A DNA stretch of 57,500 nt from Pseudomonadota bacterium (GCA_021821365.1 JAKACN010000002.1:1-57500); one strand, 5' to 3'. Shown: positions 4,789 through 56,881, counted from the stretch's first letter. Numbers and translations: made by a program. Notes: generated from the sequence alone by a model not told the origin.

Positions 4789-4899
4789 ACGAATTTTTCA
4801 ATCAATGGAGAATTCAGTAAAAAAACGACGATTAACCGGAGGCATCAAAATGGCCTACTACATCGCTCAACAATTACTACTACATTTTCTTCAGAATCA

Positions 4900-4928
4900 T
4901 TGAGTTACGTACATCCGCCGTGTACAAT
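4900..4928 (+). promoter_or_regulatory. Putative sigma70 promoter for pckG
   Basis: TTGAGT - 17 nt - TACAAT, about 200 nt upstream of the pckG ATG. Confidence 0.5.
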
Positions 4929-5136
4929 CGGCGGCTTATTTTCTGCAAATTTCGTAGGATTTTCGAACCCATCGGCCCGAGCATTATTCCCGTTTTCGGG
5001 TAGCGCGGTTACACGAAACCGCCGTCGACAAGACCGCCGTACCGCTAGCCCAAACGGAACTAGCCGAGCCACAAGCTGACGACGATCCTGCCGTGAAGGA
5101 CATGACTGAACTCTTTATTGGCACTGGAGGTAGTTT

Positions 5137-7005: not shown

Positions 7006-7033
7006 CCCGCTCTTCCGCACGGAAAGACCCATG

Positions 7034-7070
7034 AACAGCGCGGCGGGGAAACCCGCCGCGCTGTTTTTTT
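7034..7070 (+). terminator. Rho-independent terminator of pckG
   Basis: Perfect 14-bp stem aacagcgcggcggg/cccgccgcgctgtt with GAAA loop, followed by a T-run. Confidence 0.93.
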
Positions 7071-7350
7071 ATGGTCAAACGGGCTTGAGGCGGAATAGGC
7101 GGCGTCTTGTCCAACTCCGGTGGCGACCATCATGCGCGAAAAGTAAAAAGCATTGCTGTTTTGCTATCGGCGTAACGATTCATTACAAAATAAATCTTGC
7201 CGTACGGCAATATTGTGGGAGAATGGGCGCACTGTCCCGCATCATTACGGCAATTTCCATCCGCGAACTTTCTTGCAGATCCAGCTTGCGAGAAGGAAAG
7301 ACCGGAACCCTTGCGGTTCGATTTTTAACCAACATTCAGTCGGCAAGGAA

Positions 7351-27544: not shown

Positions 27545-27546
27545 GC

Positions 27547-32800: not shown

Positions 32801-33244
32801 GGGTTTCGCGGCGCGCGCGCGCTGGAACCACGGATGCTGGTCGGAGGTATGGTTGACGACCAGCTCGGTAATGACGCGCAGCCCGCGCTTGTGCGCCTCC
32901 GCGATGAAGCGCCGGGCGTCGGCCATGTTGCCGTAATCCGGATGCACGCCGCGATAGTCGGCGATGTCGTAGCCGTCATCGCGCCGCGGCGACGGATAGA
33001 AGGGCAGCAGCCAGATGGTGTTGACGCCGAGGTCGGCGATGTAGTCGAGTTTCTCGATCAGTCCGGCGAAATCGCCGATGCCGTCGTTGTTGGAGTCGTA
33101 GAAGGACTTGACGTGCACCTGGTAGATGATCGCGTCCTTGTACCACAGCGGATCCTCGTTGAAGAGGATGCGCCGCTTTGCGGCAGGCACGCTGCGTACC
33201 GACTTGCGCCGCTCGAGTTTGATATTGCCGATCTCCATGCTCAC
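29798..33244 (-). CDS. treS: Trehalose synthase (GH13_16-type) fused to maltokinase
   Basis: N-term [59 protein letters not shown]-term maltokinase with [30 protein letters not shown] start overlaps glgE stop (ATG alternative at 33238). Confidence 0.95.
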
Positions 33245-36200
33245 ATCCCCTTGTGTCGCACGCGCCAGATGGCGTAAGGATTGCTGAACGGATCCAGCCT
33301 GAGATGCTGGAACTTCCCGTGCCAGGTCAGGCGTCGCCCGTTCACCAGATCGTCCGCGTCGAGCGCTGCGCCGTCCGGCAGGCCGAGTTCCCGGAACGGC
33401 AGTTCGATGCTGGCCTCATGTGCCGCGAACGGATCGAGGTTGATGGCGACCAGCACGATGTTGTCGCCGACATGCCGGCTGCCGCCGACCGGTTCGGTCG
33501 ATTTCACGAAATACAGAATGTGTTCGTCCGACGCGTGCAGGAAGCGGATGCCGAGGTGCGACTGCAGCGCGGGATTCTCGCTGCGAATGCGATTCAGCAT
33601 GCTGATCTCCTGCACGATGTTGCCGGGGCGCTGCCAGTCCCACGCGCGAATCTCGAACTTCTCCGAGTCGAGGTATTCTTCCTTGCCCGGAATCGGCGTC
33701 GCCTCGCACAGCTCGAAGCCGCTGTACATGCCCCACAGCCCCGACAGCGTGGCCGCGAGCGCGGCGCGGATCAGGAAACCGGGACGGCCGGAGCGCTGCA
33801 GGAAATACGGGTTGATGTCCGGCGTATTGACGAAGAAATGCGGGCGGAAGAATTCGCGCACCCCGGTGGCCGTCAGCTCGGTCAGGTAGTCGGTGAATTC
33901 GGCCTTGGTGTGGCGCCAGGTGAAATAGGTGTAGGACTGCGCGAAGCCGACCTTGGCGAGACGGTACATCATCTTCGGCCGCGTGAAGGCTTCGGACAGG
34001 AAGATCGTGTCGGGGTGGCGTCCGCGTATATCGGCGATCAGCCATTCCCAGAACGGCAGCGGCTTGGTGTGCGGATTGTCGACGCGGAAGGTGCGCACGC
34101 CTTCATTCACCCAGAACAACACCACGTCGCGCAGCGCGGCCCACAGGCCGGGCACCGCGCCTTTCGCATAGAAGTCCACATTGACGATGTCCTGGTACTT
34201 CTTCGGCGGGTTCTCGGCATAGCGGATCGTGCCGTCAGGACGCCACGCGAACCACTCGGGATGCGTCTTCAGCCAGGGGTGGTCGGGCGAGCACTGGATG
34301 GCGAAATCGAGCGCCAGCTCCATGCCGTGCCGCGCCGCTTCGTCGCGCAGGCGGCGGAAATCGTCCAGCGTGCCGAGCTGCGGATGGATGGCATCGTGCC
34401 CGCCTTCCTCGGCGCCGATCGCATACGGGCTGCCGGGATCGTCCGGCGCCGGCGTCAGGCTGTTGTTGCGTCCCTTGCGATGCTTGCGTCCGATCGGATG
34501 GATCGGCGGGAAGTACAGCGTGTCGAAGCCCATCGCCTGGATCTCGGGCAGGCGCCGGATCACGTCGGCGAAGGTGCCGTGCCGCGCCGGATCGCCGCTC
34601 TGCGAGCGCGGGAACAGTTCATACCAGCTGGAAAAGCGCGCCGTCGCGCGGTCGACATCGATGCGCAGCGGCGGCTCGCGGCGTACCGCGAAGGGACGCG
34701 TATCGGCCAGGCGCATCGCTTCGGCGGTCGGTTCCGCGAGCAGCGCCGCAATGCGTTCATGGTCGCGCGCACCGGCGTTGTCGCCGGAACCCAGTTCCTT
34801 CAGTGTTTTGGCCAGCGACTTCAAGGGCGCCGCCGCCTGCGCGATGCGTCGCCGGTCGGCGGAGCGCGCCGCCGTCTCGACCATCTGCCGGCCTTCTTCC
34901 AGTTCGAGGCCGACGTTCAGGCCGGCGGTGCTTTTCTTTTCCAGCTCGTCGCGATAGGTCGCGAAGGCATCCTTCCATGCCTCGACGGTGAACAGGGTGC
35001 GGCCGATGCGCGTCATTGGCAGCGTGGCGCACCAGCGGTCGTTGCCGAGCGGATGCATGCGGGCTTCGTGCCAGTCGGGTTCGTCGGCGGCGCGCCACAG
35101 CAGGCAGACGGTGAGCTTTTCATGGCCGTCGACGAACACATCGGCTTCAATATGCACCACATCGCCGAGGATGCGCTTGATCGGAAAGCGGCCCTCGTCC
35201 ACCGCGGGCGTGACGGCTTCGATGGCGATGCGCGGCGCGCGCGCCGCCGCGCTGACCGGTTGCTCGCCTTCCGGCAAGGGCGTCAGAATGGGCGGCAGGC
35301 GGCGCGTGCTGAAGATCTGCAGGCCGGCGGCGGGAAGCTCCAGCGGCTGCAGCGGCGCATCGGTCGCGGGCCAGATGCGCTCGTAGGGAACGTAACCTTC
35401 GGCCCGCTCCAGCAACTGGTTTTCGCTCACGCTGCAGGCATGCGACACATCCGCGTTGGCGACGATCAGGAGCGCCTTGCCGCCGGCGTCGGGGCGCTGC
35501 ACCGTACTGCGCATGAGCACGGCGAGCCCGGAATCCTCGCCGCTCAGCATGTGCAGCCGCGCCGCACAGAAGGTGCCCATGCCGGCCGCGATGAGATCGT
35601 TCACGCGCCTGACCTCGTCAGAGATATCGAACGCGGCGCGCTCGTCCAGCGATTCCGGCAGGGATGCGTCCTCCGCCGCGCCGGCAGGCCACGCAATGCC
35701 GTACTCGAAGCCCATCGGCATCAGGATGCCGTTACCGATCGCCGCCGCAAGCCCGAGCGCACGCAGATGCAGGGGGCGGCGCAAGGCGACGTCCTCGTAG
35801 CCGGCCGCACGCGCGATCACCGGCTCGTCCGGGCTGTCGGGAAAGGCGACCGGCGGCGCGACCATGTTCAGCCGCGCATATTCCTCCGTCATCCAGTGCG
35901 TGCGGTAATCCCACCATGCCGACGAGGAAAACGTGGCATCGAACCCGCAGCCCGCGAGCGCCTGTATCTGCTGCGGCGGGCAGCCGGGTGTCCATGCGAG
36001 GAAGCATGCCGCCGCGTGCGCCGTCTTCACCGTGCCGATGAATTGTTGCCAGAAGGATGGCGGCACGGCAGCGACTTCCATGCAGCGAAACCCGGTGACG
36101 CCGGCCTGCATCCACGGCTGCATGCGCTGATGCCAGTAACCGGCAATGGCGTCGGCGACTTCCGGCTGCATGAAGCGCAGCGCGCGTGCGCGTTGCTGCC

Positions 36201-36561
36201 TTTGCTGCGATAGCGGCCAGCGCGGGTCGGGCAGGTCATCGAGGTCGCCGCTGGAAAACCAGTCGGGATGGCTTTCCGCAATGGAATCGTCCGCGCCGAT
36301 GGCAGCGATGTCGAGATCGAGCAGCAGGCGCAGCTTCTTCCGCACGCACAGGCGCGCGAGTTCGGCGACGGCATCGTCATGCAGGCGGACGCTATCGCCA
36401 TGCGCGTGGCGATGCACGGCAGGCATGGAAACAAGCACGTGGTCGAATCCCATCGCGATGCATCGGTCCAGGTGTTTTTCGAGTCCGGACGCCGGACCGG
36501 CAAGCTGCGGGGGAAGGCAATAGATTCTGGGCAGGAAAGGCGTCGATGGAACAGTCGTCAT
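33241..36561 (-). CDS. glgE: Alpha-1,4-glucan:maltose-1-phosphate maltosyltransferase with about 430-aa N-terminal extension
   Basis: C-terminal about 670 aa canonical: [123 protein letters not shown]. Confidence 0.95.
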
Positions 36562-36894
36562 GAACCGGTTCGCTCAAGGTGAAAACAGCGGTGGCAAGCA
36601 GGGGCCTGATATTCCTTATTGGGTGTTATAGGCGACGCGCCGCGTCTTTCCAAATAGAGCATCCGGACCGGCAATTTGTTCTCAAGACGATATGCAGAAA
36701 TCGCAAGCTTTCGCGCGCGATTGCATGCTCTGCACTGTCGTTCTCGCAAGTCCGTTGCTGTCGAGGAACAAACGCACTCTTTTGCAGTCTATGCTGCTTC
36801 ACAATTCCTTCCGGCAACAGCAATACTGTCGTTGCGGAGGCAGTGTCGCGCAGAGTGCAAGCTGCCGGAACGATGTCGTTTTGCGAGACAGTCA

Positions 36895-38448
36895 ATGATC
36901 ATTTATCAGGTTTACCCGCGCAGTTTCTTCGATGCGAACAACGACGGCATCGGCGACCTGGCGGGCATCGAGAAAAAGCTTTCCTACATCAAGAGCCTCG
37001 GCGTCGATGCGATCTGGATCAGCCCGTTCTTCAAGTCGCCGATGAAGGACTTCGGCTATGACGTGGCCGACTACCGCGCGGTCGATCCGATCTTCGGCAC
37101 CATGGACGATTTCAAGAGCCTGCTGCGCAGCGCGAAGGTGATGGAGCTCGGCATCATCGTCGACATGGTGATCTCGCATACCTCGGAGGAGCATCCGTGG
37201 TTCAGCGCGAGCCGCGCGAAGGAGGGCAACAAATCCGACTGGTACCTGTGGGCCGATCCGAAACCGGACGGCACGCCGCCCAACAACTGGGTGTCGGTAT
37301 TCGGCGGTCCCGCATGGCAATGGGATGCCGGCCGCCGCCAGTATTACTTCCACTCCTTCCTGCCGAGCCAGCCCGACCTCAACATGCACAACCTCGCGGT
37401 GCAGGACCAGGTGCTGGCCGAGATGCGTTTCTGGCTGGAGATGGGCGTATCTGGCTTCCGCTTCGATGCCTGCAATCACATCTTCCAGGACCTGCAACTG
37501 CGCAGCAATCCGCCGAAGGAAGACAACGGTGCCGCGTTGCATCCCTACGGCTACCAGGTGCATGTATATGACCAGGCGCAGCCGGAGATGCTGCCCTTCC
37601 TCGAGCGGATTCGCGGCCTGCTCGAGGAATACGGTGCATTCAGCCTGGCCGAAGTCGGCGGGCATGACGCGCTCAGGCTGATGGGCGAATACACCGGCGC
37701 GACGCGCCTGCATTCCGCCTACAGCTTCGCGATGATGCGCCCCGAGAGCAGCGCGGCTTATGTGCGCAACGTGATCGCCACACTGGAGGAACACATCAGG
37801 CCGCCGGCCAACGCCTGCTACGCATTGAGCAACCACGACAAGCCGCGCGTCGCATCACGCTGGCTGAACGGACGCGACCGCGAGCAGTTCGCAAAGGAAA
37901 TGCTGGCGCTGCTGTTCGCCATGCGTGGCGACATCTGTCTTTACCAGGGGGAAGAGTTGGGTCTGCCCGAGGCAAACGTGCCCTTTGAACGCCTGCAGGA
38001 CCCCTTCGGCAAAAACTTCTGGCCGAAATTCAAGGGTCGCGACGGCTGCCGCACGCCGATGCCGTGGACCAACCATGTGCATGGCGGATTCAGTCAAGCT
38101 GAGCCGTGGCTGCCGGTGGACGAACTGCATCGCGAACTGAACGTCGACAGCCAGCAAGCGCGACCGCACTCGGTGCTGAACTTCGCGCGCGAGATGATTG
38201 CGCTGCGCAAGGCACGTCCGGAACTGGGCCGCGGAACGCTGTGCCTGTTCGATGCGCCGGAAGGCGTGCTCGCTTTTTCAAGACAGCATGAAGGCCATGA
38301 GCTGGTATGCCTGTTCAACATGGACGTCACGGCGAAACAGGTGCCGGTGCCGGCGTTCAGGAATGCGGTGTTGAGCCGCAATGCAATGGCCGGCAAGCGA
38401 ACCGTGGCGCTGGAGGTGTGCGGGTTCTGTTTGTTGGAAGTGGCCTAA
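36895..38448 (+). CDS. GH13 alpha-amylase family glycosidase (alpha-glucosidase-like)
   Basis: IIYQVYPRSFFDANNDGIGDLAGIEKKLSYIKSLGVDAIWISPFFKSPMKDFGYDVADYR; GFRFDACNHIF; SLAEVGG; SNHDKPR; start uncertain because the frame is open upstream to 36676. Confidence 0.92.
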   Translation: MIIYQVYPRSFFDANNDGIGDLAGIEKKLSYIKSLGVDAIWISPFFKSPMKDFGYDVADYRAVDPIFGTMDDFKSLLRSAKVMELGIIVDMVISHTSEEHPWFSASRAKEGNKSDWYLWADPKPDGTPPNNWVSVFGGPAWQWDAGRRQYYFHSFLPSQPDLNMHNLAVQDQVLAEMRFWLEMGVSGFRFDACNHIFQDLQLRSNPPKEDNGAALHPYGYQVHVYDQAQPEMLPFLERIRGLLEEYGAFSLAEVGGHDALRLMGEYTGATRLHSAYSFAMMRPESSAAYVRNVIATLEEHIRPPANACYALSNHDKPRVASRWLNGRDREQFAKEMLALLFAMRGDICLYQGEELGLPEANVPFERLQDPFGKNFWPKFKGRDGCRTPMPWTNHVHGGFSQAEPWLPVDELHRELNVDSQQARPHSVLNFAREMIALRKARPELGRGTLCLFDAPEGVLAFSRQHEGHELVCLFNMDVTAKQVPVPAFRNAVLSRNAMAGKRTVALEVCGFCLLEVA

Positions 38449-38690
38449 CTGCCACCCCTTTAAAGGTCTCGGTTAACAATCCCGTCTTTGTGCACACGCG
38501 CCATCGATACATGACGGCGCGCGACTTCCGCAAAAAACTTCATCTCCTGGTTGGCATGCCGCCAAAGAAATAGATGCGTTCCCTTCGAGACGGCAGTATC
38601 AATTCTTCCATTTGCAAATCAAATTGAGCGCGCCTCTCTCGCGCGCACTAATTCAACGCCGGTAAGTTTGCACGGACGCACCGTTCCGCC

Positions 38691-40793
38691 TCACGCCCTC
38701 GGCCTCCGATTCGCCAACACCACCACACTGCGCCCCTGCACCTCCACCGCAGGCTCCTCCACCACCCGCACCTCCGCCCCCGGTACCGCGCTATCCACCA
38801 GCAAATACCACTTCACCGCTGGCAATGGAAAACCGAACCGCATCGCCTCATGCCCTCCATTGATGAACATCAGCACCATCTCCACCTCGCCAGCCGCAGA
38901 TACGCTCGCGCGTTGCACCGCGAGCGCGCGAGCTTCGGGGTTTTGCCATGCTTCTTCCGACAATCCTTGTCCCTGTTCGTCGAACCACGCGATGTCCTTC
39001 ACGCCGGGCGCTATTTCCTGGCCGTGCCGGAAGGCGTGCGATTGCAGCGCGGTGAATTCGTGGCGTAATGCCGCGAGGCGGCCCACGTAGTCGATCAGCG
39101 CCTGGCCTTCCGGCGTGTGGGCGGCGGCCCAGTCGACCCACGAGATGTCGTTGTCCTGGCAATACGCATTGTTGCTGCCGCGCTGCGTGCGCCCGAATTC
39201 GTCGCCGGCGAGCAGCATCGGCGTGCCTTGCGCGAGCAGCAGGGTGGCGAGCATGGCGCGCTTGACCCGGTCGCGCAATTCACGAATCGCGGGGTCGTCC
39301 GCCGGACCTTCGGCACCCCAGTTGGCGCTGTAATTCTCGTTGTGCCCGTCGTTGTTGTCTTCGCCGTTGGCCTCGTTGTGTTTCTGCGCGTAGCTCACCA
39401 GGTCCTGCAGGCTGAAGCCGTCGTGCGAGGTGACGAAATTGACCGAGGCCCAGGGTTTGCGGTGGCGGCGGTCGAACAGGTCGGCGGAGCCGCTCAGGCG
39501 CTGGGCGAGTTCGGCGCGCTGGCCGGAGTCGCCGCGCCAGAACTGCCGCACGCAGTCGCGGTATTTGTCGTTCCATTCGGCGAAGCGCGGCGGATGATTG
39601 CCAAGCTGGTAGCCGCCGAGGCCGACGTCCCAGGGTTCGGAGATGAGCTTCAGGCGCGACAGCACGGGATCCTGCAGGATCGCGTCGAAGAAGCCGGCGC
39701 CCGGGTCGAAGCCGGTGCCTTCGCGGCCGAGGGTGGCGCCGAGGTCGAAGCGGAAGCCGTCGATGTGGAAGGATTCGGCCCAGTAGCGCAGCGAGTCCAG
39801 CACGAGTTGCAGCACGCGCGGATGCGAGATGTTGAGCGTGTTGCCGCAGCCTGTCTCGTCGATGTAATGGCGCTCGTTGCCCGGCATGAGACGGAAATAG
39901 CTCACGTTGTCGAGGCCGCGAAAGCAGATGGTCGGGCCGAGCTCGTTACCGCTTCCGGTGTGGTTGTAGACCACGTCGAGGATGATTTCGATGCCGGCGG
40001 CATGCAGGCGGCGCACGGCGAAACGCATGTCGTTCAGGCCGCCGCCCGAGAGGTAGCCCGGCTCGGGCGCGAAGAAGGAGAGCGGGCTGTAGCCCCAGTA
40101 GTTGCGCAATCCCCGCTGCAGCAGGAAGTGGTCCTGCAGGAAGGCCTGCACCGGCATCAGTTCGATGGTGGTGATGCCGAGCTTGTGCAGATGTTCGATG
40201 AAGCGCGGGTTGGCCAGCGCGGTGAAGGTGCCGCGCAGGTCGGGGCGCAGGTCGTCGCGCAGCATCGAGATGCCGCGCACATGCGCTTCGTAGATGACGG
40301 TGTTCGGCCACGGCACGCGCGGACGGCGGTCGTCGCCCCAGTTGAACAGGTCTTCCACCACGACGGCTTTCGGCATCGCGGCCGCGCTGTCGCGCCGGTC
40401 GAAGCTGAGGTCGCCGCGCGAGGAGCCGATGCGGTAGCCGAACAGCGCGTCGGTCCAGCGCAGCGGGCCGGAGAGCAGGCGCGCGTAGGGGTCGAGCAGC
40501 AGCTTGTGGTGGTTGAAGCGATAGCCGCGCGGCGGATCGTAGGGGCCGTAGGCGCGATAGCCGTACTGCAGGCCGGGGCCCGCTTCGGGCAGGTAGCCGC
40601 ACCACACTTCGTCGGTGCAGTCGGGAAGCGGCAGGCGGGCGAGCTCCTTGCGTCCGGCGGCGTCGAACATGCACAGCTCGACTTTTTCCGCGCTCGCCGA
40701 GAACACGGCGAAGTTGACGCCCGTGCCGTCATAGCTTGCGCCGAGCGGGTGGGGATGCCCGGGCATCAGTCGATCCGGAATGTCAAAGAACAT
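38691..40793 (-). CDS. glgX: Glycogen debranching enzyme GlgX (copy 2)
   Basis: HPLGASYDGTGVNFAVFSASAEKVELCMFD; DVVYNHTGSGNELGPTICFRGLDNVSYFRL; GDEFGRTQRGSNNAYCQDNDISWVDW. Confidence 0.95.
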   Translation of the reverse strand: MFFDIPDRLMPGHPHPLGASYDGTGVNFAVFSASAEKVELCMFDAAGRKELARLPLPDCTDEVWCGYLPEAGPGLQYGYRAYGPYDPPRGYRFNHHKLLLDPYARLLSGPLRWTDALFGYRIGSSRGDLSFDRRDSAAAMPKAVVVEDLFNWGDDRRPRVPWPNTVIYEAHVRGISMLRDDLRPDLRGTFTALANPRFIEHLHKLGITTIELMPVQAFLQDHFLLQRGLRNYWGYSPLSFFAPEPGYLSGGGLNDMRFAVRRLHAAGIEIILDVVYNHTGSGNELGPTICFRGLDNVSYFRLMPGNERHYIDETGCGNTLNISHPRVLQLVLDSLRYWAESFHIDGFRFDLGATLGREGTGFDPGAGFFDAILQDPVLSRLKLISEPWDVGLGGYQLGNHPPRFAEWNDKYRDCVRQFWRGDSGQRAELAQRLSGSADLFDRRHRKPWASVNFVTSHDGFSLQDLVSYAQKHNEANGEDNNDGHNENYSANWGAEGPADDPAIRELRDRVKRAMLATLLLAQGTPMLLAGDEFGRTQRGSNNAYCQDNDISWVDWAAAHTPEGQALIDYVGRLAALRHEFTALQSHAFRHGQEIAPGVKDIAWFDEQGQGLSEEAWQNPEARALAVQRASVSAAGEVEMVLMFINGGHEAMRFGFPLPAVKWYLLVDSAVPGAEVRVVEEPAVEVQGRSVVVLANRRPRA

Positions 40794-40927
40794 GCATTGG
40801 GTCTCCCGCGTGCGTTGAACCTGCTTGCCATGTCGGCAACAGGTTCGAGCTTGCGGGCGGGCATATCGTTCCCCGAAGCGAACAGGATCGATGTGCGATT
40901 GCCCTTGCGGAATGTTTTCCGTGCGGC

Positions 40928-46724: not shown

Positions 46725-46740
46725 ACTGGTTGGACCAATT
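46725..46740. promoter_or_regulatory. LldR-like operator candidate, copy 1: ACTGGTTGGACCAATT
   Basis: 14/16 identical to the site at 47485-47500; contains TGGT-N3-ACCA typical of FadR-type GntR operators. Confidence 0.55.
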
Positions 46741-47456
46741 CACCTCTTACCTGCCGCCGGCACCAGGCGGGTGCGCACGTAATCGATGTGTGCCTGCATG
46801 GCGGTCCGGGCCTCCTCGGGGCGGCGCGCGCAAATGGCGTCGCATACACTGCGATGCTGCAGCAATAGCTGCTCGGGAATCGATACTTCCAGCTCGCGCA
46901 GGCCGGCGACATTGAGCGTAATGTGTTCGCGCAGCATGCTCATGATGCTGCTGTGCAGGTGCAGGAACATGCTGTTGCGCGAGGCCAGCGCGATCGCATC
47001 ATGCAGCCGGGCGTCGATACTGGATTCGGTCTCCTTGTCGTCGCTGTTGCGGGCGCGCTCCAACCCATCCATCAGGCCGCTGATGCGCTCGATATCCTCG
47101 GCGCTGCCGCGCAAAGCGGCGAAGTAAGCGGTCGCTCCTTCCAGCACCCGCCGGAACTCGAGCATGTCTTCCCGCACGGCCGGATGGTCGGCGATCAGCT
47201 GGCCCCACGGCGAGGCGATGCCGGTGCGCAGCTGGTCCGATACGAATACGCCGGCACCGCGGCGGCTGCGCACCAGGCCGCGCGCCGCGAGCCGCTGGAT
47301 CGCCTCGCGCACGGTGTTGCGCGACACCCCGTAGCGCTCGGCCATTTCCCGCTCCGCCGGGAGTCGCGCGTTGGCCGGAAAGCTGCCATCCAGCATCGCC
47401 GTCTCCAGCCGACGCATGACTTCCTCCACCCGCCCGCTCGCTTGCCTGCCGCCCAT
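46740..47456 (-). CDS. lldR: FadR-subfamily GntR regulator, probable L-lactate regulator
   Basis: LPAEREMAERYGVSRNTVREAIQRLAARGLVRSRRGAGVFVSD plus FCD domain; divergent to an L-lactate permease; alternative start 47498. Confidence 0.87.
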   Translation of the reverse strand: MGGRQASGRVEEVMRRLETAMLDGSFPANARLPAEREMAERYGVSRNTVREAIQRLAARGLVRSRRGAGVFVSDQLRTGIASPWGQLIADHPAVREDMLEFRRVLEGATAYFAALRGSAEDIERISGLMDGLERARNSDDKETESSIDARLHDAIALASRNSMFLHLHSSIMSMLREHITLNVAGLRELEVSIPEQLLLQHRSVCDAICARRPEEARTAMQAHIDYVRTRLVPAAGKR

Positions 47457-47484
47457 TGCTGTCTCCTGTGCCTGCCAGTGTTCG

Positions 47485-47500
47485 ACTGGTCCGACCAATT
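47485..47500. promoter_or_regulatory. LldR-like operator candidate, copy 2: ACTGGTCCGACCAATT
   Basis: Located just upstream of the lldR start, in the lldR/lldP divergent intergenic region. Confidence 0.65.
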
Positions 47501-47756
47501 TGCGTCGTCCAGTCGTCTGCTGGGATTATGCGGGCACAAAAAGAAATACGCAAAGACACGCCTCGACCGACGCCCTGCGGCGAGGCTCCCAGGAGACGAT
47601 TCACGGAACACCCCCATCCCCGCTGCGCCTTGCCACCCGGCTGAACCGCCGCGCCGACGCAATCGGCCGCGGAGCACATTCGACCGAGCCTCCGCGCAAG
47701 GACGCCCTACGCACCGATTCTTTAATTCATTGATTGATTTGCTGGAGGAGAGCTTC

Positions 47757-49415
47757 ATGGTTTGGCAACAGGTTTACGACCCATTCGGGAACATGGTCAT
47801 CTCGACCCTGCTGGCGGCGATACCAGTCGTGGTCATGCTGGTATCGCTGGGTTTTCTGCACATCAAGGCGCATCTCGCCGCCGGCCTCGGCCTGCTGGCG
47901 GCGTTCGTCGTCGCCGTGTTTGCATACGGCATGCCGGCGGCGATGGCGGGCAAGGCGGCCCTGCTCGGCGGCTTCACCGGCCTGCTGCCGATCGGCTGGA
48001 TCGTGCTCAACATCATCTTCCTGCAGCAACTGTCGGAGCAGAACGGCAGCTTCAAGGTCCTGCAATCGTCGCTGTCGGGCATCACCGATGACCGCCGCCT
48101 GCAACTGCTGCTGATCGCATTCTGCTTCGGCGCATTCTTCGAGGGCGCGGCCGGCTTCGGCACGCCGGTCGCCGTGACCGCCGGCATCCTGATCGGGCTG
48201 GGTTTTTCGCCGCTGGCCGCATCGGGCCTGAGCCTGATCGCCAATACCGCGCCGGTGGCCTTTGGCGCGCTGGGCACGCCGGTCATTACGCTGGCCAAGG
48301 TGCACGGCTACGATCTGATGGACGTGACCGCGATGATCGGCCGCCAGCTGCCGTTCTTCTCGTTGCTGGTGCCGTTCTGGCTGATCTGGGCCTTCGCCGG
48401 GCGCAAGGCGATGATGGAGATATGGCCGGCGCTGCTGGTGACGGGCCTGTCGTTTGCCATTCCCCAGTACCTGGTATCCAACTTCATCGGCCCGGAACTG
48501 GTCGACATCATCGCGGCGATCGTGTCGATGGTCTCGCTGATCCTGTTCCTGCGCGTGTGGCAGCCGAAAAAGATCTGGCTCTCGCCCAACCTGAAAGGCC
48601 ACGAGAACGATGGCGGCCACGTATCCGCCCCCGAGCCTGTCCAGCACTACTCGCGCGCAGAACTGGTTCGCGCATGGACGCCGTGGGCCATCCTGACCGG
48701 CTTCGTGTTCGTCTGGGGCCTGCCCCCGGTGAAGACCTTCCTGGACAAGGTTTTCGTCGCCAAGTTTCCCATCGACGGCCTGCACAACCTGATCATGAAG
48801 ATGCCGCCGGTGGTGCCGAAGGCGCATCCGGAAGCCGCGGTCTATGTGCTCAACCTGCTCTCCGCCACCGGCACCGGCATCCTGCTGGCAGCCATCGTCG
48901 GCGCGCTGGTCATGAAATACAGGCCGGTCGAGATCGTGCGCACGTTCGGTCGCACCTTCTGGCTGGTGCGCTATTCGCTGATCACGATCGTGCTGATGCT
49001 GGCGCTCGGCACGCTGACGCGTTTTTCCGGCACCGACACCACGCTCGGCCTGGCCTTCGCCAACAGCGGCGTGCTGTATCCCTTCTTCGGCACCCTGATG
49101 GGATGGCTGGGGGTGAGCATGACCGGTTCCGACACCGCATCGAACGTGCTGTTCGGCGGCATGCAGCGCGTGGCGGCCGAGCAGCTCGGCCTGTCGCCCA
49201 ACCTGATGGGCGCCGCCAACAGCTCCGGCGGCGTGATGGGCAAGATGATCGATGCGCAATCCATCGTGGTGGCGTCCACCGCCACCCGCTGGTTCAACCA
49301 CGAAGGCGACATCCTGCGCTATGTGTTCTTCCACTCGATCGCACTCGCCTCCCTGGTTGGCCTGTTCGTGACATTGCAGGCATACGTCTGGCCCTTCAGC
49401 GCCATGGTCAAGTAA
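47757..49415 (+). CDS. lldP: L-lactate permease (LctP family)
   Basis: LLIAFCFGAFFEGAAGFGTPVAVTAGILIGLGFSPLAASGLSLIANTAPVAFGALGTPV; FSGTDTTLGLAFANSGVLYPFFGTLMGWLGVSMTGSDTASNVLFG. Confidence 0.96.
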   Translation: MVWQQVYDPFGNMVISTLLAAIPVVVMLVSLGFLHIKAHLAAGLGLLAAFVVAVFAYGMPAAMAGKAALLGGFTGLLPIGWIVLNIIFLQQLSEQNGSFKVLQSSLSGITDDRRLQLLLIAFCFGAFFEGAAGFGTPVAVTAGILIGLGFSPLAASGLSLIANTAPVAFGALGTPVITLAKVHGYDLMDVTAMIGRQLPFFSLLVPFWLIWAFAGRKAMMEIWPALLVTGLSFAIPQYLVSNFIGPELVDIIAAIVSMVSLILFLRVWQPKKIWLSPNLKGHENDGGHVSAPEPVQHYSRAELVRAWTPWAILTGFVFVWGLPPVKTFLDKVFVAKFPIDGLHNLIMKMPPVVPKAHPEAAVYVLNLLSATGTGILLAAIVGALVMKYRPVEIVRTFGRTFWLVRYSLITIVLMLALGTLTRFSGTDTTLGLAFANSGVLYPFFGTLMGWLGVSMTGSDTASNVLFGGMQRVAAEQLGLSPNLMGAANSSGGVMGKMIDAQSIVVASTATRWFNHEGDILRYVFFHSIALASLVGLFVTLQAYVWPFSAMVK

Positions 49416-49430
49416 GCAAGGAGAAAAACA

Positions 49431-49883
49431 ATGAGCAAGCGTATTTTTGTCGCCATCGACGATAGCAGCACGTCGCAGAAGGCGCTGGATGAAGCGGTCC
49501 GCCTGGCCAGTGCGCTGGGTGCGGACCTGTGCATTGCAACGGCCATCGACGAAGGCCCGTTGATGCAGCACGGGATGGGGCTCGGCTCCTTTGTCGACGT
49601 CGACAAGGTCAAGATGGAGATGCGCGAAGTCGGCATGACGCTGCTCGATCAGGCAGTCGCCAGCGCGACCGCGGCGGGCTGCCGGGCCGAGCGCATGCTG
49701 ATCGAACCTTCCCAGCGCAGGGTTGCGGAAATGATCGCCGAGGCAGCCAGCCAATGGCATGCCGATCTGGTCGTCGTCGGCACGCACGGCCGGCGCGGAT
49801 TCGAACGCATGCTGGTCGGCAGCGTTGCCGAGAACCTGGTTCGCATCGCCACGACATCACTGATGCTTGTCCGGGAGAATTGA
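49431..49883 (+). CDS. Universal stress protein (UspA family)
   Basis: MSKRIFVAIDDSSTSQKALDEAVRLASALGADLCIATAID; DLVVVGTHGRRGFERMLVGSVAENLVRIATTSLMLVRE. Confidence 0.94.
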   Translation: MSKRIFVAIDDSSTSQKALDEAVRLASALGADLCIATAIDEGPLMQHGMGLGSFVDVDKVKMEMREVGMTLLDQAVASATAAGCRAERMLIEPSQRRVAEMIAEAASQWHADLVVVGTHGRRGFERMLVGSVAENLVRIATTSLMLVREN

Positions 49884-49920
49884 GCCGGGCAGGGAGGTCC
49901 CGTCCCGTTGCGGCGAGGAT

Positions 49921-49958
49921 CCGGCATTCGCCGTCAGGTTGCCCATGGCGAATGTCGG
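49921..49958. promoter_or_regulatory. Long inverted repeat CCGGCATTCGCC-N14-GGCGAATGTCGG overlapping a putative promoter
   Basis: 11/12 complementary arms; overlaps TTGCCC-N18-TAATAT (49939-49968) just before the DUF2946 ORF. Confidence 0.6.
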
Positions 49959-49974
49959 ATGTTAATATCATGCA

Positions 49975-50373
49975 ATGGGGATGAATCTTTTGACGCGCCG
50001 GATCGCTGCCTGGATCGCATGTTTTGCGGTCCTGCTGGCAGCGCTCGCGCCGTCGATTTCCCATGCCATTTCCGCAGCGCGGGATGCTTCCGATCCGTGG
50101 GGCGACATCTGCTCGCAGACCGGCTACCAGCAGGTCCACACGCACGGCGGGCACCACCACTCGGCGCCCTCTCCGCTCAAGAAAGGCCTGCACTTCGAAC
50201 ACTGCCCGTTCTGCTTCACCCATGGCGGATCGGTCGGCCTTCCGCCCGTCGCGGCCATGTCGCTGCCGGTCGTCACTGCCACGCAGGAACGGCCATTTCT
50301 CTACTACCAGTCCCCGCGCCCGCTGTTCATCTGGGCCGCAGCGCAATCCCGCGCGCCTCCTTTCATTTCCTGA
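49975..50373 (+). CDS. DUF2946 domain-containing protein (candidate copper-responsive upstream ORF)
   Basis: MGMNLLTRRIAAWIACFAVLLAALAPSISHA; VHTHGGHHHS; HFEHCPFCFTHGG; first ORF before tonB/TBDR genes. Confidence 0.85.
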   Translation: MGMNLLTRRIAAWIACFAVLLAALAPSISHAISAARDASDPWGDICSQTGYQQVHTHGGHHHSAPSPLKKGLHFEHCPFCFTHGGSVGLPPVAAMSLPVVTATQERPFLYYQSPRPLFIWAAAQSRAPPFIS

Positions 50374-50588
50374 TTTCCGCCGTTGCCGGTAGCGGTGCGT
50401 AAGCACCGGCTGCCGCTCGCTGCAAGACGTGGCCGGACTGCATCGTCCATCGCTTGCGCGCGCGCCTATCGCATTTCGCGGCCTGTCCGCCGTCATGCGA
50501 CTGCCCGCCGCGCGGCATGCACGCGCCGCCGGCGACGTTCCGGCCGGCACACGCATTGATTTCAGCGCCAGATACCTGTGAGGTTTCA

Positions 50589-51293
50589 ATGATCGTCAGA
50601 CCATTCGTCTTCGATAGCAAGGAGCACGCGTCACGCACGTCGCATGCCGCGCACATCGGCACCTTCGGCATCGCCCTCGGCCTGCATGTCGCGCTTGCGG
50701 CATGGGTGTCGCAGGCAAGATTCGACACACCGTCCAGGCCAGTTCCGGTCCGGATGGAAGTGCGCACCATCGCGATGTCCATGCAACGGCAGGAAGTTTC
50801 GGTGCCCGTCGCGCAGCAGCCGAAGCCGCTTCCGCAAGCGGCGCGACCCGATGCTCGCCCCATCGTCCGGCACATTCCGACGCCCCCGCAAACCGCGCCG
50901 GCGGCAGCACCTAAAGCCGAATCCGCGCCGGCAAGCCTCACTACCGCCCCACAGGCATCGCCTGCCAGGGAAGAGGCCGTCCCCGCTCCGGTTGTTGCGC
51001 CTGCTCCAGTGACCGCTGCGCGTTTCGATGCCGACTACCTGCAAAATCCGCCCCCGGCATTTCCCATGCTGTCCCGCAAATTGCATGAAGAAGGAAAGGT
51101 GTTGCTGCTGGTGCAGGTGTCCGCCCGCGGCGAAGCTGGCGCGATCCAGATCAAGCAGAGCAGCGGCTATCCACGCCTCGACGACGCCGCCATCAGTGCG
51201 GTCCGCACATGGCGATTCATCCCTGCGCGCCGGGGTACGGAGCCCGTCGCCAGCAGCGTCGTCGTGCCGCTGGTCTTCCGCCTCGACAGCTAA
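50589..51293 (+). CDS. TonB family energy transducer
   Basis: One N-terminal TM, Pro/Ala-rich spacer, C-terminal PPPAFPMLSRKLHEEGKVLLLVQVSARGEAGAIQIKQSSGYPRLDDAAISAVRTWRFIPARRG. Confidence 0.93.
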   Translation: MIVRPFVFDSKEHASRTSHAAHIGTFGIALGLHVALAAWVSQARFDTPSRPVPVRMEVRTIAMSMQRQEVSVPVAQQPKPLPQAARPDARPIVRHIPTPPQTAPAAAPKAESAPASLTTAPQASPAREEAVPAPVVAPAPVTAARFDADYLQNPPPAFPMLSRKLHEEGKVLLLVQVSARGEAGAIQIKQSSGYPRLDDAAISAVRTWRFIPARRGTEPVASSVVVPLVFRLDS

Positions 51294-51327
51294 CCGCATT
51301 CAACGAATTCAAACCAGGAAATACAAA

Positions 51328-53454
51328 ATGAAAGCCACCTATCCACCTCTCCATCTCGCCCTGATGGCCGCCTTGGCGGGATCGGGCAACACTGCCGTCG
51401 CGGCAAGCGAAGCGCCGGTGCTCGACGAAGTCGTCGTCAGCGGATCGCGCGCGGCGACGAAACTGAACGACACGCCGCAAGCCATCGGCGTCGTGAAAGA
51501 AGAAGCCCTGAAACGCGACAAGCCCAAGACCATGGGCGAGGTCATCAATCGCATTCCGGGCGTCTACTGGAACGACCTGGGCAATGAACAGCACAGCATG
51601 GGCATTCGCCAGCCGATCAGCACCAACGCGGTGTACCAGTACCTCGAAGACGGCATCCCGATTCGTCCGCTGGGCGTGTTCAACCACAATTCACTCAACG
51701 AAATGAATCTTGCCGGCACCGACAGCGTGGAGGTGGTGAAGGGGCCGGCCTCCTCGCTGTACGGCAGCAATGCGGTCGGCGGCGCCGTCAATTTCCTGAC
51801 CGCCGCACCGTCGCCCACGCCGACTGCCAGCGTGGGCGTGCGCCACGACGACACCGCCGGCTTCACGCGGTATGACACGTCCGCCAGCAACACCTGGGGG
51901 CCGCTCGGCCTGCGCTTCTCGCATTACAGCTCGCGCCGCACGCGCGACAACTGGCAGGAGTACAGCAATGGCAGCAAGGATTCCTTCTCGCTGCGCGGCG
52001 ACTATGCCTTGAGCGTTTCGTCGCAACTGCGCGCCACGCTGGTGCACACCGACCTCGACTCGGCCATGACCGGCAGCCTGTTCGAGAACGATTACCGCGC
52101 CAATCCCGGCAAGAGCCTCAACACCTTCACCTATCGCAAGGACAAGACCACGCGCGCCAACCTGGCGTGGGAAGGAGAGACGACGCACAACGGACTGACC
52201 ACCGTCACGCTGTTCAGCCGCAGGAACGACCATGGGCAGATCCCGAGCTATACGATCGGCAGCTGCGTGGGCAGCACCTGCAAGGGCACGATCAACAACA
52301 ATCATGTCGATTCGCTCGGGCTCGATGTGAAGCACCAGCAGGAATTCGACTGGCTGGCATCGCGCCTCATCGCCGGCGTGTACATCGACCGGAGCGACAA
52401 TCCCTATGTCAGCGACAATCTGAACATCACGCGCGATCCGGTGAGCGGACGATATGTCAGCTACACGCTCTCCAGCGCGACCGACCCAAAGGGCGTGCGC
52501 GACTTCCAGGCCGACATCGACAACGTGGCGGCCTTCGCACAATGGGAGCTGTCGCCGTTGGCACGGACGCGCGTCGTCGCGGGCGGGCGCATCGATACCA
52601 TCCGCTACGACTACCACAACAAGCTTTCGCCGGCAGGCAGCGTCAATTTCGGCGCACCGGACGAAGCGCGCAGTTTTTCCCACTTTAGTCCGAAGATCGG
52701 CGCCACCTATGCGCTCAGCAAGGACGCCAGCGTCTATAGCAACATCAGCGAAGGCTTCACGCCGCCGGAGGTGCTGCAGTTATATGGCAAGACCGGCATT
52801 CCCAACCTGAAGCCGTCCACCTACGACAACTACGAGCTCGGCCTGCGCATGGCCTTCCTGAACGGCGCGCTCAAGCTCGATTCGGCGCTGTACCGCCTCG
52901 ACGGGCGCGACACGCTGGTGAACTACACCGTCTCTCCCGGCAACACCGAATACCGCAACGCCGGCAGCACGCGCAGCCAGGGCCTGGAACTTGGCCTCAC
53001 TTATGACGCCGGCGCAGTCGATGCGCGTTTCGGCACCACGATCGCCTCGCATCGCTTCCGCAGGTATCAGGTCTCCGGCACGCTGGATTACAGCGGCAAG
53101 GACATGCCGCAGGCGCCGCGCGACATCACGACTGCCGAGCTCGGCTACAAGCCGATGGCCGGCGCGCGCATTGCGCTGGAGCTGGTGCACCAGGGCGAGT
53201 ACTGGATGGACAACGCCAACACCGTGAGGTATCCGGGCCACACGCTGCTCAATCTGCGCGGCCGCTACCAGTTCGCGAAGGGATGGGAGGCCTGGCTGCA
53301 GGCGCGCAACCTGGCCGACAGGCGTTATGCGGACTCCGCGTCGAGTTCCTACTCGGGCGTCGGCGCCTATTCGCCGAACACGCAAAACCAGTACACGCCC
53401 GGCGCGCCGCGCAGCGTGATGATCGGCCTGGCCTACACCTACGGCGCCCCATAA
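51328..53454 (+). CDS. TonB-dependent outer-membrane receptor
   Basis: TonB-box region LDEVVVSGSR; plug GEVINRIPGVYWNDLGNEQHSMGIRQP; VEVVKGPASSLYGSNAVGGAVNFLT; beta-barrel C-terminus. Confidence 0.96.
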   Translation: MKATYPPLHLALMAALAGSGNTAVAASEAPVLDEVVVSGSRAATKLNDTPQAIGVVKEEALKRDKPKTMGEVINRIPGVYWNDLGNEQHSMGIRQPISTNAVYQYLEDGIPIRPLGVFNHNSLNEMNLAGTDSVEVVKGPASSLYGSNAVGGAVNFLTAAPSPTPTASVGVRHDDTAGFTRYDTSASNTWGPLGLRFSHYSSRRTRDNWQEYSNGSKDSFSLRGDYALSVSSQLRATLVHTDLDSAMTGSLFENDYRANPGKSLNTFTYRKDKTTRANLAWEGETTHNGLTTVTLFSRRNDHGQIPSYTIGSCVGSTCKGTINNNHVDSLGLDVKHQQEFDWLASRLIAGVYIDRSDNPYVSDNLNITRDPVSGRYVSYTLSSATDPKGVRDFQADIDNVAAFAQWELSPLARTRVVAGGRIDTIRYDYHNKLSPAGSVNFGAPDEARSFSHFSPKIGATYALSKDASVYSNISEGFTPPEVLQLYGKTGIPNLKPSTYDNYELGLRMAFLNGALKLDSALYRLDGRDTLVNYTVSPGNTEYRNAGSTRSQGLELGLTYDAGAVDARFGTTIASHRFRRYQVSGTLDYSGKDMPQAPRDITTAELGYKPMAGARIALELVHQGEYWMDNANTVRYPGHTLLNLRGRYQFAKGWEAWLQARNLADRRYADSASSSYSGVGAYSPNTQNQYTPGAPRSVMIGLAYTYGAP

Positions 53455-53478
53455 CGTCACCAGGAAAGGAGTTGCATC

Positions 53479-54216
53479 GTGAATGAAAAACTCGGAATCG
53501 CCCACTTCTGGGCACAAGGCGATGCCATATCGCACGGCGTCGCCCTCGCGCTGCTGCTGATGTCCGTCGTCAGCTGGACCATCATCATCGGCAAGGTCGT
53601 CGCGCAGCTGCGCGCCCGCGCATCGATCATGGCTGCCATGCAGTCGTTCTGGAATGCGTCCTCGCGCACGCAGGCATTGGAGACGATGCGCAAGGACGAC
53701 AGGACCGGCGTCTTCGCGATGGTCGCAACGGATGCGGTGCTGGCTGCACAGGCATGGGAAGAGAGGGCGGAAAACGGGATCAATACCGGCGGCGTGGATG
53801 CCGGCGAGTTCATCGGGCGCACGCTACAGCAATCGACGCTGCTCGCGCAGGCGCGCGTCGAACGCGGCCTGACCTTCCTCGCCTCGGTGGGATCGACCGC
53901 GCCCTTCGTCGGCCTGTTCGGTACGGTGTGGGGCATCTACCACGCGCTGGTCGGGCTGTCCGGCGCCACGCAGGTGGTGCTGGACAAGGTGGCCGGTCCG
54001 GTGGGCGAGGCGCTGATCATGACGGCGGCGGGCCTGTTCGTCGCGATTCCGGCCGTGCTCGCCTATAACGCGTTCACCCGCGCCAATCGCCTGGTGCTGG
54101 CGCAGCTCGACGGCTTCGCGCACAGCCTGCATGCCTGGCTGGTGGCCGGCGTGCGGCTCGACGGGCAGGCGCGTGCCGCCACAGTGACGGCATTGCACGC
54201 GGCGCAAGCGCATTGA
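53479..54216 (+). CDS. exbB: MotA/TolQ/ExbB proton channel family protein
   Basis: LTFLASVGSTAPFVGLFGTVWGIYHALVGLS; VGEALIMTAAGLFVAIPAVLAYN. Confidence 0.95.
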   Translation: MNEKLGIAHFWAQGDAISHGVALALLLMSVVSWTIIIGKVVAQLRARASIMAAMQSFWNASSRTQALETMRKDDRTGVFAMVATDAVLAAQAWEERAENGINTGGVDAGEFIGRTLQQSTLLAQARVERGLTFLASVGSTAPFVGLFGTVWGIYHALVGLSGATQVVLDKVAGPVGEALIMTAAGLFVAIPAVLAYNAFTRANRLVLAQLDGFAHSLHAWLVAGVRLDGQARAATVTALHAAQAH

Positions 54217-54225
54217 GGAGCGGCC

Positions 54226-54654
54226 ATGGCATTCAACAACAAACCCAACAGCGGCGGCATGGCGCAGCCGATGGCGGAAATCAACACCACGCCACTGGTG
54301 GATGTGATGCTGGTGCTGCTGGTGATTTTCATCATCACCGCGCCGCTCTTCAACCAGGCGATTCCGATCGATCTTCCGCGCGTCGATGCCGGTCGCGTCG
54401 ACGACAAGCCGCGCATGGTGCAGGTGGCGCTCGATGCCGAAGGCAAGATCTTCGTCGACGGCAAGGAGGTGCCTTTCACCGCGCTGGATGAGCGGCTGCA
54501 TGCGATGGCGGGAACGCCCGCGCTGGAGATGCACCTGCGTGCCGACCGTGGCACGCGCTACGATCGGGTCGCCGCCATCATGGCCGCGGCGCAAAAGAAC
54601 GGCATCAGCAGGATTGCTTTCGTGACGGAGGGAGAAGACCATGCGCATCAATAA
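54226..54654 (+). CDS. exbD: ExbD/TolR biopolymer transport protein
   Basis: MAEINTTPLVDVMLVLLVIFIITAPLFNQAIPIDLPRVDA. Confidence 0.95.
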   Translation: MAFNNKPNSGGMAQPMAEINTTPLVDVMLVLLVIFIITAPLFNQAIPIDLPRVDAGRVDDKPRMVQVALDAEGKIFVDGKEVPFTALDERLHAMAGTPALEMHLRADRGTRYDRVAAIMAAAQKNGISRIAFVTEGEDHAHQ

Positions 54655-55867
54655 TAGCGTCAACTGCGGCGTCACGGCGTTCTGCATGCTGGCGGCCAGT
54701 GGAGCGGCTTTCGATGCCCACGCGCAGGCCGGGCACATGCATCACAACATGGCCGCCGGCAAACGGATCGAACTGGGCACCACGGTCGCCGCAGATGCGA
54801 GCGGGCGCCTGTGGGCAGCCGGCAAGGAAGCCGACGGCGATGGGCAGTACGTGATACTGCAGTCATCGGACGACGGCGGCAAGACATGGTCTTCTCCGCA
54901 TCGCATCCAGCAGCAGCCGGAACCGGTCGCGGCCGATGGAGAAAACCGGCCGAAGCTGGCGTTCGGCACGCAGGGCGAGCTCTACATCTCGTACACGAAA
55001 CCGCTGGCGAAGCCATACACCGGCGAGATCCGCTTCGTGCGCTCGCTCGACGGCGGGAAAACCTTCCTGCCGCCGGTGACCGTGCACGCCAACCGCGACG
55101 AGATCACGCATCGCTTCGACTCGATGGTTGTCGATCGCAGCGGACGCATCTACATCGCCTGGATCGACAAACGCGACGGCATCGCGGCGGCGGCACGCAA
55201 GGAGAAGTATGCCGGCGCCGCGCTGTACTACGCGGTGTCGGAAGACCATGGCGCGAGTTTCCGGGGCGACTACAAGATTGCCGACCATTCCTGCGAATGC
55301 TGCCGCATTGCGCTCGCGCTCAACCCGGACGGCAATCCCGTCGCCATGTGGCGCCATGTCTTCGCGCCCAATATACGCGACCATGCGATGGCAGAGCTGC
55401 GGCCCGACGGCAAGGCCGGAGCGTTGACGCGCGCAAGCTTCGACAACTGGCGCATCGACGCCTGCCCGCACCATGGACCGTCGCTCGCCTTCGACAGCGA
55501 TGGCACGCGCCACCAGGTGTGGTTCAGCATGAAGAATGGCGACGGCGGCATTTTTTATGCGAAGGCGGCTCCCGACGGAAAACCGGGCACGCCGATACGA
55601 CTCGGCGCCGCCAATGCGGAACATGCGGATGTGGCCGTGGATGGCAAGCACGTCGTGCTCGCATGGAAGCAGTTCGACGGAACGTCGACAGCGATCTTCG
55701 GCAAGGTATCGATCGATGGCGGCACGACCTGGAAGGAAACTGAATTCGCGCGCACCGCGGGCGCGTCGGACCAGCCGCGCCTGCTGAAAACGCCCTCTGG
55801 GATCGTGCTCGCGTGGCGCACGCAGGCGGAAGGCATCCGCATCGTGCCGGCGGGCGGAGGGAAATGA
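54641..55867 (+). CDS. Secreted Asp-box (sialidase-like) beta-propeller protein with CECC motif
   Basis: Signal peptide; Asp boxes SSDDGGKTW, SLDGGKTF, SEDHGASF, SIDGGTTW; motif HSCECCRIAL; start overlaps exbD. Confidence 0.85.
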   Translation: MRINNSVNCGVTAFCMLAASGAAFDAHAQAGHMHHNMAAGKRIELGTTVAADASGRLWAAGKEADGDGQYVILQSSDDGGKTWSSPHRIQQQPEPVAADGENRPKLAFGTQGELYISYTKPLAKPYTGEIRFVRSLDGGKTFLPPVTVHANRDEITHRFDSMVVDRSGRIYIAWIDKRDGIAAAARKEKYAGAALYYAVSEDHGASFRGDYKIADHSCECCRIALALNPDGNPVAMWRHVFAPNIRDHAMAELRPDGKAGALTRASFDNWRIDACPHHGPSLAFDSDGTRHQVWFSMKNGDGGIFYAKAAPDGKPGTPIRLGAANAEHADVAVDGKHVVLAWKQFDGTSTAIFGKVSIDGGTTWKETEFARTAGASDQPRLLKTPSGIVLAWRTQAEGIRIVPAGGGK

Positions 55868-56352
55868 TCATGCGTCGGTTGATCGCATCGCTGCTGGCAG
55901 CGCTAGCCATCCTTGTTCCCGCTGCGGCGCGCGCAGGCCAGGTACTGCAGGCGTTCGAGCCGGACAGCCTGGCGCGCATTGTCGCCACGCAGAAGGGCAA
56001 GCCGTTCGTCCTGATCGTGTGGTCGCTCGACTGCGTGTACTGCCAGGCCAGCCTGAAAACACTGGCGCAGGAGAAGCGCAGGCACAAGGAATTGACCGTG
56101 GTAACGATTTCCACCGACGCGGTGGATGATCCGGATGCCGTGGCGCTCATGCAAACGCGGCTGGGAGCGCTCGGCATGATGCGCCATGCCTGGGCCTTCG
56201 GCATGGCGCCGCCGGAACAGCTGCGCTATGCCATCGATCCCGCATGGCACGGCGAGAAGCCGCGCAGCTACTGGTTCGACGCGCGCGGCGGAAAGACGGG
56301 CTATTCGGGCGTGATCACGGCGGCGATGATCGAACGGTTCTCGCCCCGTTGA
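55864..56352 (+). CDS. Thioredoxin-fold (TlpA-like) secreted protein
   Basis: ATGATCATG start overlapping the upstream stop (second ATG 55870); signal peptide MRRLIASLLAALAILVPAAARA; KPFVLIVWSLDCVYCQASLKTLAQEKRRHKELTVVTIS. Confidence 0.83.
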   Translation: MIMRRLIASLLAALAILVPAAARAGQVLQAFEPDSLARIVATQKGKPFVLIVWSLDCVYCQASLKTLAQEKRRHKELTVVTISTDAVDDPDAVALMQTRLGALGMMRHAWAFGMAPPEQLRYAIDPAWHGEKPRSYWFDARGGKTGYSGVITAAMIERFSPR

Positions 56353-56362
56353 TGGCACGCCT

Positions 56363-56881
56363 TCACCGTTGCGCCTCCAGCAGTTGCTTCAGGTTGCCGA
56401 GGCCGGCTGCGAAAATGCCGCTGATCGTCTTTCTTGCCGCTTCATCGTCCATCGCGGCACCTTCCTTGCGGCGGAAACGCGCCTGCCATGTCACCACGGA
56501 TCCGCTGCCCTCGCCGGGCACGACGGCAAGCGACGCTTCATAGTCGGTGACAGGCAGGGGAGAATCGAGCATGACGTAGTGCTGGGCCATGTGCGCATCG
56601 TCTTGTTCGCGCAGCTGCTCCGTCATCTTCGCGCCGTCCTTGAGCGTGAGCAGGCGGACTGCCTGGCTTTCGTTGTGGCGGCCTGCGGTCAGCTGCGTCG
56701 CGGCCACTGCCGGATGCCAGGCCATGTTGTCGAAATTCTTCACGGCTTTCCAGGCCGTTTCCGGCGCGACGCCGACGGCGATGCTTTCCCGGACATCGAG
56801 CAGCGAAGCCGATGCCGCAACGCCGTGGGCGAGCACACCCAGGCCAAGCGCGGTGAATTGCCATAGTGCGCGAAACTTCAT
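56363..56881 (-). CDS. Secreted SRPBCC (polyketide cyclase-like) family protein
   Basis: LLDVRESIAVGVAPETAWKAVKNFDNMAWHPAVAATQLTAGRHNESQAVRLLTLKDGAKMTEQL. Confidence 0.87.
   Translation of the reverse strand: MKFRALWQFTALGLGVLAHGVAASASLLDVRESIAVGVAPETAWKAVKNFDNMAWHPAVAATQLTAGRHNESQAVRLLTLKDGAKMTEQLREQDDAHMAQHYVMLDSPLPVTDYEASLAVVPGEGSGSVVTWQARFRRKEGAAMDDEAARKTISGIFAAGLGNLKQLLEAQR

Follow-up and report, generated by a model that had tools for sequence, protein, structure and literature searches.

A candidate CruR-controlled copper-import operon containing a conserved beta-propeller and thioredoxin-like pair

We examined a seven-gene cluster at positions 49975–56352 of the window (the whole 57,500 nucleotide stretch of DNA from a Pseudomonadota bacterium) and conclude, with a probability of roughly 0.7, that it is a copper-import operon under CruR-type control, in which a secreted beta-propeller and a thioredoxin-like protein would accept, reduce and relay the incoming copper. 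Regulation by CruR and copper uptake that depends on TonB are already known; the propeller and thioredoxin pair is new and apparently undescribed. Seven open reading frames were confirmed, all on the plus strand and in the order and spacing first described for the locus. The features are as follows:

49975–50373, plus strand: DUF2946/cruR-type leader ORF, 132 amino acids, CPFC at residues 77–80 (Pfam DUF2946, 83 bits)
50110–50580, plus strand: C>G-rich stretch (C exceeds G from ~49990 onward), a candidate Rho-dependent terminator region covering the end of cruR and the 215 nt gap
50589–51293, plus strand: tonB, dedicated energy transducer (Pfam TonB_C, 66.8 bits)
51328–53454, plus strand: TonB-dependent receptor (TBDR), 708 amino acids (Pfam Plug and barrel)
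53479–54216, plus strand: exbB, GTG start (Pfam MotA_ExbB, 103 bits)
54226–54654, plus strand: exbD (Pfam ExbD, 110 bits)
54641–55867, plus strand: secreted Asp-box beta-propeller (AlphaFold2 pLDDT 84; Foldseek matches to sialidase and PLL-lectin propellers)
55864–56352, plus strand: secreted TlpA/ResA-like thioredoxin-fold protein with CVYC (AlphaFold2 pLDDT 89; Foldseek matches to MPT53, ResA, CcmG and TlpA)

The leader is followed by a gap of 215 nt before tonB, and the subsequent gaps are 34 nt (TonB/TBDR), 24 nt (TBDR/ExbB) and 9 nt (ExbB/ExbD); ExbD and the propeller then overlap by 14 nt, and the propeller and thioredoxin by 4 nt (ATGA). The exbB gene begins with GTG, while the close relative L004 has ATG at the same place. 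The ORF calls and Pfam matches thus agree with the initial annotation of a compact plus-strand cluster, and the motifs it had singled out (CPFC and HTHGGHHH in the DUF2946 protein, CECC and HMHHNM, the latter within GHMHHNM, in the propeller and CVYC in the thioredoxin) are all present. Its description of a TonB-ExbB-ExbD set dedicated to one receptor was likewise confirmed: TonB_C, MotA_ExbB and ExbD all exceed their Pfam cut-offs, as do Plug and barrel, and the three genes are contiguous with a single receptor gene. An NCBIfam search assigned no family to the DUF2946 protein, the propeller or the thioredoxin. A scan of positions 49700–56600 found no promoter, and terminator-like sites within it did not exceed the level in shuffled sequence, with no intrinsic terminator above chance; an Rfam search of the locus gave no match, and a tRNA search of the window found none.

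The operon is preceded by a UspA-like gene (49431–49883) and an L-lactate permease-like gene (46923–49415), whose L004 homologue has a match to Lactate_perm. A gene for a GntR-like regulator (46740–47498) lies on the opposite strand. Further upstream, a mostly minus-strand block at ~25400–40800 resembles glycogen/trehalose metabolism (GlgX-, GlgB- and TreS-like, from translations judged by eye).

The leader ORF combines a CXXC motif with a C-terminal RAPP, 45 residues between the two and three residues after RAPP, a spacing identical to the values published for Bp2923/CruR (PMC9426467). It is the first gene of the cluster and is followed by the long intergenic gap. In 78 nt sliding windows, C exceeds G throughout the candidate terminator region, and the excess is strongest where the ORF ends (C 44% versus G 21% at 50290–50367). 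CXXC is found in 23 of 23 cruR-like ORFs examined, most of which carry RAPP or RGPP at 45–46 residues, with divergent members retaining a PP end. On this sequence anatomy, the DUF2946 gene is a CruR-type copper-sensing regulatory leader ORF. The initial annotation had regarded its product as an accessory for metal uptake or capture; we rejected that role, since every CruR feature that we examined is present, with exact spacing.

In Bordetella pertussis, CruR (DUF2946) is an upstream ORF whose nascent chain senses copper through its CXXC motif; copper bound there relieves stalling at the C-terminal RAPP, and Rho then ends transcription within the gap downstream (PMC9426467). That mechanism was demonstrated in Bordetella, and the identical anatomy suggests that it operates here as well. 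Under copper scarcity, ribosomes would stall at RAPP and keep Rho off, so that the operon is transcribed; in the presence of copper, the nascent CXXC would bind the metal, stalling would be relieved, and transcription would end in the 215 nt gap.

The source genome contains a second DUF2946 gene above cut-off, at locus L163 (G000:C142). There, in the stretch 4578–7264 on the minus strand, a CruR-like ORF that ends in SHGPPAFS lies directly upstream of an OprC-type receptor (TIGR01778, 755 bits; OprC structures, 658 bits), and no propeller or thioredoxin gene was seen at that locus. With a CruR-type gene heading OprC, the CruR-type leaders of the source genome are linked to receptors for copper.

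The receptor of the studied locus is harder to place. Its best match among solved structures is YncD/PqqU (117 bits), with CrtA_Bp (9RVQ, identified as such in PMC12914433) ranking 12th at 57 bits. It falls below the cut-off of every curated NCBIfam TBDR family, its better matches there including general siderophore and hemin receptor models. We considered three specific assignments. The PqqU model NF041535 scores 134 bits, far below its cut-off of 1200, and identity to the solved PQQ receptor is low. Membership of CrtA is unsupported, given the weak 9RVQ match and the fact that a PepSY_TM search of the source genome gave no match anywhere; the region of the ligand-site His358, invariant in CrtA, did not align reliably with the receptor. 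OprC was rejected, since TIGR01778 is absent from the receptor's best 25 NCBIfam families and no OprC entry appears among its PDB matches, in contrast to the L163 receptor.

Within the receptor's own group, plug residues His89 and His120 are invariant in 30 of 30 sequences and His575 is conserved in 29; both plug histidines align with non-histidine residues in YncD/PqqU. Judging from this conservation, we infer that His89 and His120 are candidate copper ligands. In a separate case, the receptor of a Candidatus Nitrotoga cassette (L015, 4992–7547) has a sub-threshold resemblance (355 bits) to ZnuD, a zinc receptor. We regard it as improbable that copper acts merely as the regulatory signal while the receptor of the studied locus takes up something else, such as zinc, a siderophore or a PQQ-like cofactor. 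The YncD/PqqU and siderophore/hemin matches, the ZnuD-like relative and the scatter of the pair's receptors over at least seven groups would all fit such a role, but the sub-threshold family scores, the group-invariant plug histidines and the recurrence of copper-related neighboring genes argue against it.

The propeller reaches Pfam BNR_2/BNR at or just below cut-off. Its AlphaFold2 model (mean pLDDT 84.3, with 13–14 relatives as input) is matched best by Foldseek to sialidases and Photorhabdus PLL lectins (TM 0.62/0.71), with 11–18% identity to the solved relatives listed. A His-rich N-terminal tail follows the signal peptide, and two further segments, Cys218-x-Cys220-Cys221 and Cys275-Pro-His277-His278, probably lie in loops entering neighboring blades on the same face, according to the predicted strand order. 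All four cysteines are invariant across 97 of 97 propeller sequences, remote homologues included; among the histidines, His291 is conserved in 94, His277 in 90 and His157 in 85. The cysteines could form disulfides instead of a metal site. Databases name the protein ‘sialidase family protein’, and comparison with GH33 confirms an Asp-box propeller fold. That it is an ordinary carbohydrate-binding or sialidase-type protein, present at the locus by chance, is nevertheless very improbable: although the Asp-box motif, the Foldseek matches and the database name point that way, the identity to solved relatives is low, the RIP motif of GH33 sialidases is absent from its sequence, and the four invariant cysteines are accompanied by conserved linkage to a thioredoxin and a TBDR.

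The thioredoxin-like protein matches Pfam AhpC-TSA below cut-off, and its AlphaFold2 model (mean pLDDT 88.6, again with 13–14 relatives as input) is matched by Foldseek to structures that include the TlpA-ScoI and TlpA-CoxB complexes. Cys57, Cys60 and Pro133 are invariant in 13 sequences, and the features of the TlpA/ResA/CcmG type (secreted thioredoxin fold, CXXC and candidate cis-Pro) are present. From its model, the protein folds like a TlpA/ResA/CcmG-type protein and is a putative reductase. TlpA acts with ScoI and CoxB in copper-site maturation.

Sampling of the order gave the propeller in 63 of 399 genomes; the samples of the class and the phylum gave it in 28 of 369 and 9 of 299, and each tally includes the source genome. 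We assembled 94 loci (the studied locus, 13 from named genomes and 80 from the samples), which span several orders as well as other classes. The thioredoxin gene immediately follows the propeller in 80 of them, a TBDR gene immediately precedes it in 73, and 69 have all three without interruption; these counts come from phylogenetically related genomes, are not independent, and include at least one duplicate (L013 = L053). Because the pair and its upstream TBDR recur in most of the 94 loci, the cluster is not a chance arrangement, and propeller and thioredoxin are true conserved members of it. TonB is present in 35 loci, ExbB in 25 and ExbD likewise in 25. Receptor, propeller and thioredoxin form the conserved core, and TonB-ExbBD lies outside it, since only about one locus in four has ExbB and ExbD.

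A neighborhood search for DUF2946, TBDR and propeller genes had been suggested; cruR was detected in 24 of the 94 loci and undetected in the remaining 70. Of 61 propeller genomes, 24 have DUF2946 above its cut-off, and in 18 of those 24 it lies no more than 5 kb from the propeller; the expectation for random positions is well under 1% in genomes of this size. PCuAC is encoded in 11 loci, an Fer4_5 polyferredoxin in nine and a DsbD_2 membrane protein in six, and the 25 families seen most often in a Pfam scan of 70 other operon neighbors included no additional recurrent one linked to copper. PepSY_TM was found within ~6.5 kb of the propeller in only two of 61 genomes.

Several individual loci differ in their surroundings. 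PilS-like histidine kinase genes adjoin the cassette in L136 (2661–4462) and L142 (2750–4015), where there is no cruR; perhaps they act as an alternative regulator. In L097 and L102 (genomes G340 and G311), alone among the sampled loci, a PepSY_TM gene lies ~6 kb upstream of the propeller, with a DUF2946 gene 9–11 kb upstream; these two loci may combine the CrpH route with that of the propeller. A protein of ~300–337 amino acids is encoded beside polyferredoxin and DsbD_2 genes in L064, L066, L067, L074 and L075; a Pfam search with the L064 member gave no match.

Remote propeller homologues (24–27% identity) keep the four cysteines and are sited in copper gene clusters. On Sulfitobacter/Pseudosulfitobacter plasmids they lie amid copper oxidase, copper-binding and azurin-family genes, with DsbA and P-type ATPase genes also nearby and no TBDR; in Methylomagnum, the propeller gene adjoins CopC and is near amoBA. 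These settings, together with the PCuAC neighbors, would suit a copper operon in which the pair, while not part of the import route, helps to mature cuproproteins or to protect against copper (through folding, disulfide repair or Cu(I) sequestration). We consider this unlikely, since the TBDR lies directly upstream of the propeller in so many loci and CruR repression by copper suits acquisition, not detoxification (PMC9426467).

The genes of the locus appear to differ in ancestry. Its cruR, propeller and thioredoxin are closest to those of other Oxalobacteraceae loci, the propeller being 78% identical to that of L004 and then 63–68% to those of L005–L010. The receptor, in comparison, shares 64% identity with its counterparts in L136 and L072 but has almost no relation to the L005–L010 receptors, and ExbB/ExbD are closest to L049/L058/L059/L061/L082 (59–66%). 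Because these nearest relatives differ, the receptor and its TonB-ExbBD set were probably exchanged, as judged from sequence identities, between cruR and the propeller pair. That the pair is found with at least seven groups of receptors argues for a role after import instead of recognition of one ligand.

The reading of the locus as a copper-uptake operon is consistent with the CruR anatomy, the OprC neighbor of the second CruR-type gene, the recurrent copper-related genes and the four invariant cysteines. In the proposed pathway, the TBDR, energized by its own TonB-ExbB-ExbD, would carry a copper chelate over the outer membrane. The propeller would act as periplasmic copper acceptor through its invariant CxCC + C site and histidines, while the thioredoxin would keep the propeller cysteines reduced and/or supply electrons, thereby maintaining copper as Cu(I); where polyferredoxin or DsbD_2 neighbors are present, they may be sources of reductant. 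The most likely next recipient would be PCuAC/Sco, which would pass the copper into the assembly of heme-copper oxidases; the source genome has one PCuAC and, above cut-off, 12 COX1-family matches. The original idea of metal capture, reduction and release may thus hold, and is now better grounded by the invariant cysteines, the TlpA-like partner and the PCuAC, DsbD_2 and polyferredoxin neighbors.

More tentatively, and at somewhat less than even odds, the propeller may be the founding member of a widespread periplasmic copper family (CxCC + C) that forms, with its TlpA-like partner, a modular reduction and relay station that could serve several unrelated TonB receptors and replace the PepSY_TM (CrpH) route. 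Outer-membrane copper acquisition and the fate of copper just after entry are poorly known, and the pair, whose propeller is labeled a sialidase in protein databases, is a concrete conserved candidate for the step following import. Where they adjoin a propeller, the ‘AhpC_TSA peroxide-detoxifying’ genes of CruR operons may encode TlpA-like reductases. The system lends itself to direct tests, since it offers conserved residues, a redox partner and leaders that respond to copper.

The initial suggestion that the system was undescribed holds, within the literature searched, for the propeller and thioredoxin combination but not for the operon type, since CruR-TBDT copper operons have been published, some with TonB/ExbBD or AhpC_TSA genes (PMC9426467, PMC12914433). 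Our literature search found no description linking a propeller or sialidase with copper and TonB, although the supplementary tables of the CruR/CrtA papers may list it. The Bradyrhizobium pcuABCDE operon is induced by copper starvation and combines a TBDR, PCuAC and periplasmic proteins, and the passing accounts of it in PMC12617631 and PMC8424229 report no propeller. The OprC locus L163 shares with the studied locus a CruR-type gene upstream of a TBDR; the studied locus differs in a receptor matching neither the OprC structures nor, among its best 25 families, TIGR01778. The Bradyrhizobium TlpA-ScoI-CoxB system shares a TlpA-like reductase acting on periplasmic copper-binding cysteines, a likeness reflected in the thioredoxin's matches to TlpA complexes, but the partner here would be the propeller and not Sco or CoxB.

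The closest comparison is with the Bordetella pertussis cruR-crtA(bfrG)-crpH(bp2921) operon (PMC9426467, PMC12914433, PMC13038864). Both have a CXXC/RAPP leader with identical spacing, a long GC-rich gap after it and then a TBDR, and a downstream periplasmic redox step has been proposed there as at the studied locus. The studied locus differs in having its own TonB-ExbBD and a receptor that is not demonstrably CrtA. More than 75% of crtA loci carry a PepSY_TM gene (PMC12914433), whereas the studied locus has no PepSY_TM protein CrpH and encodes instead the propeller and its TlpA-like thioredoxin, a pair that would fill the place of CrpH in operons of the Bordetella type.
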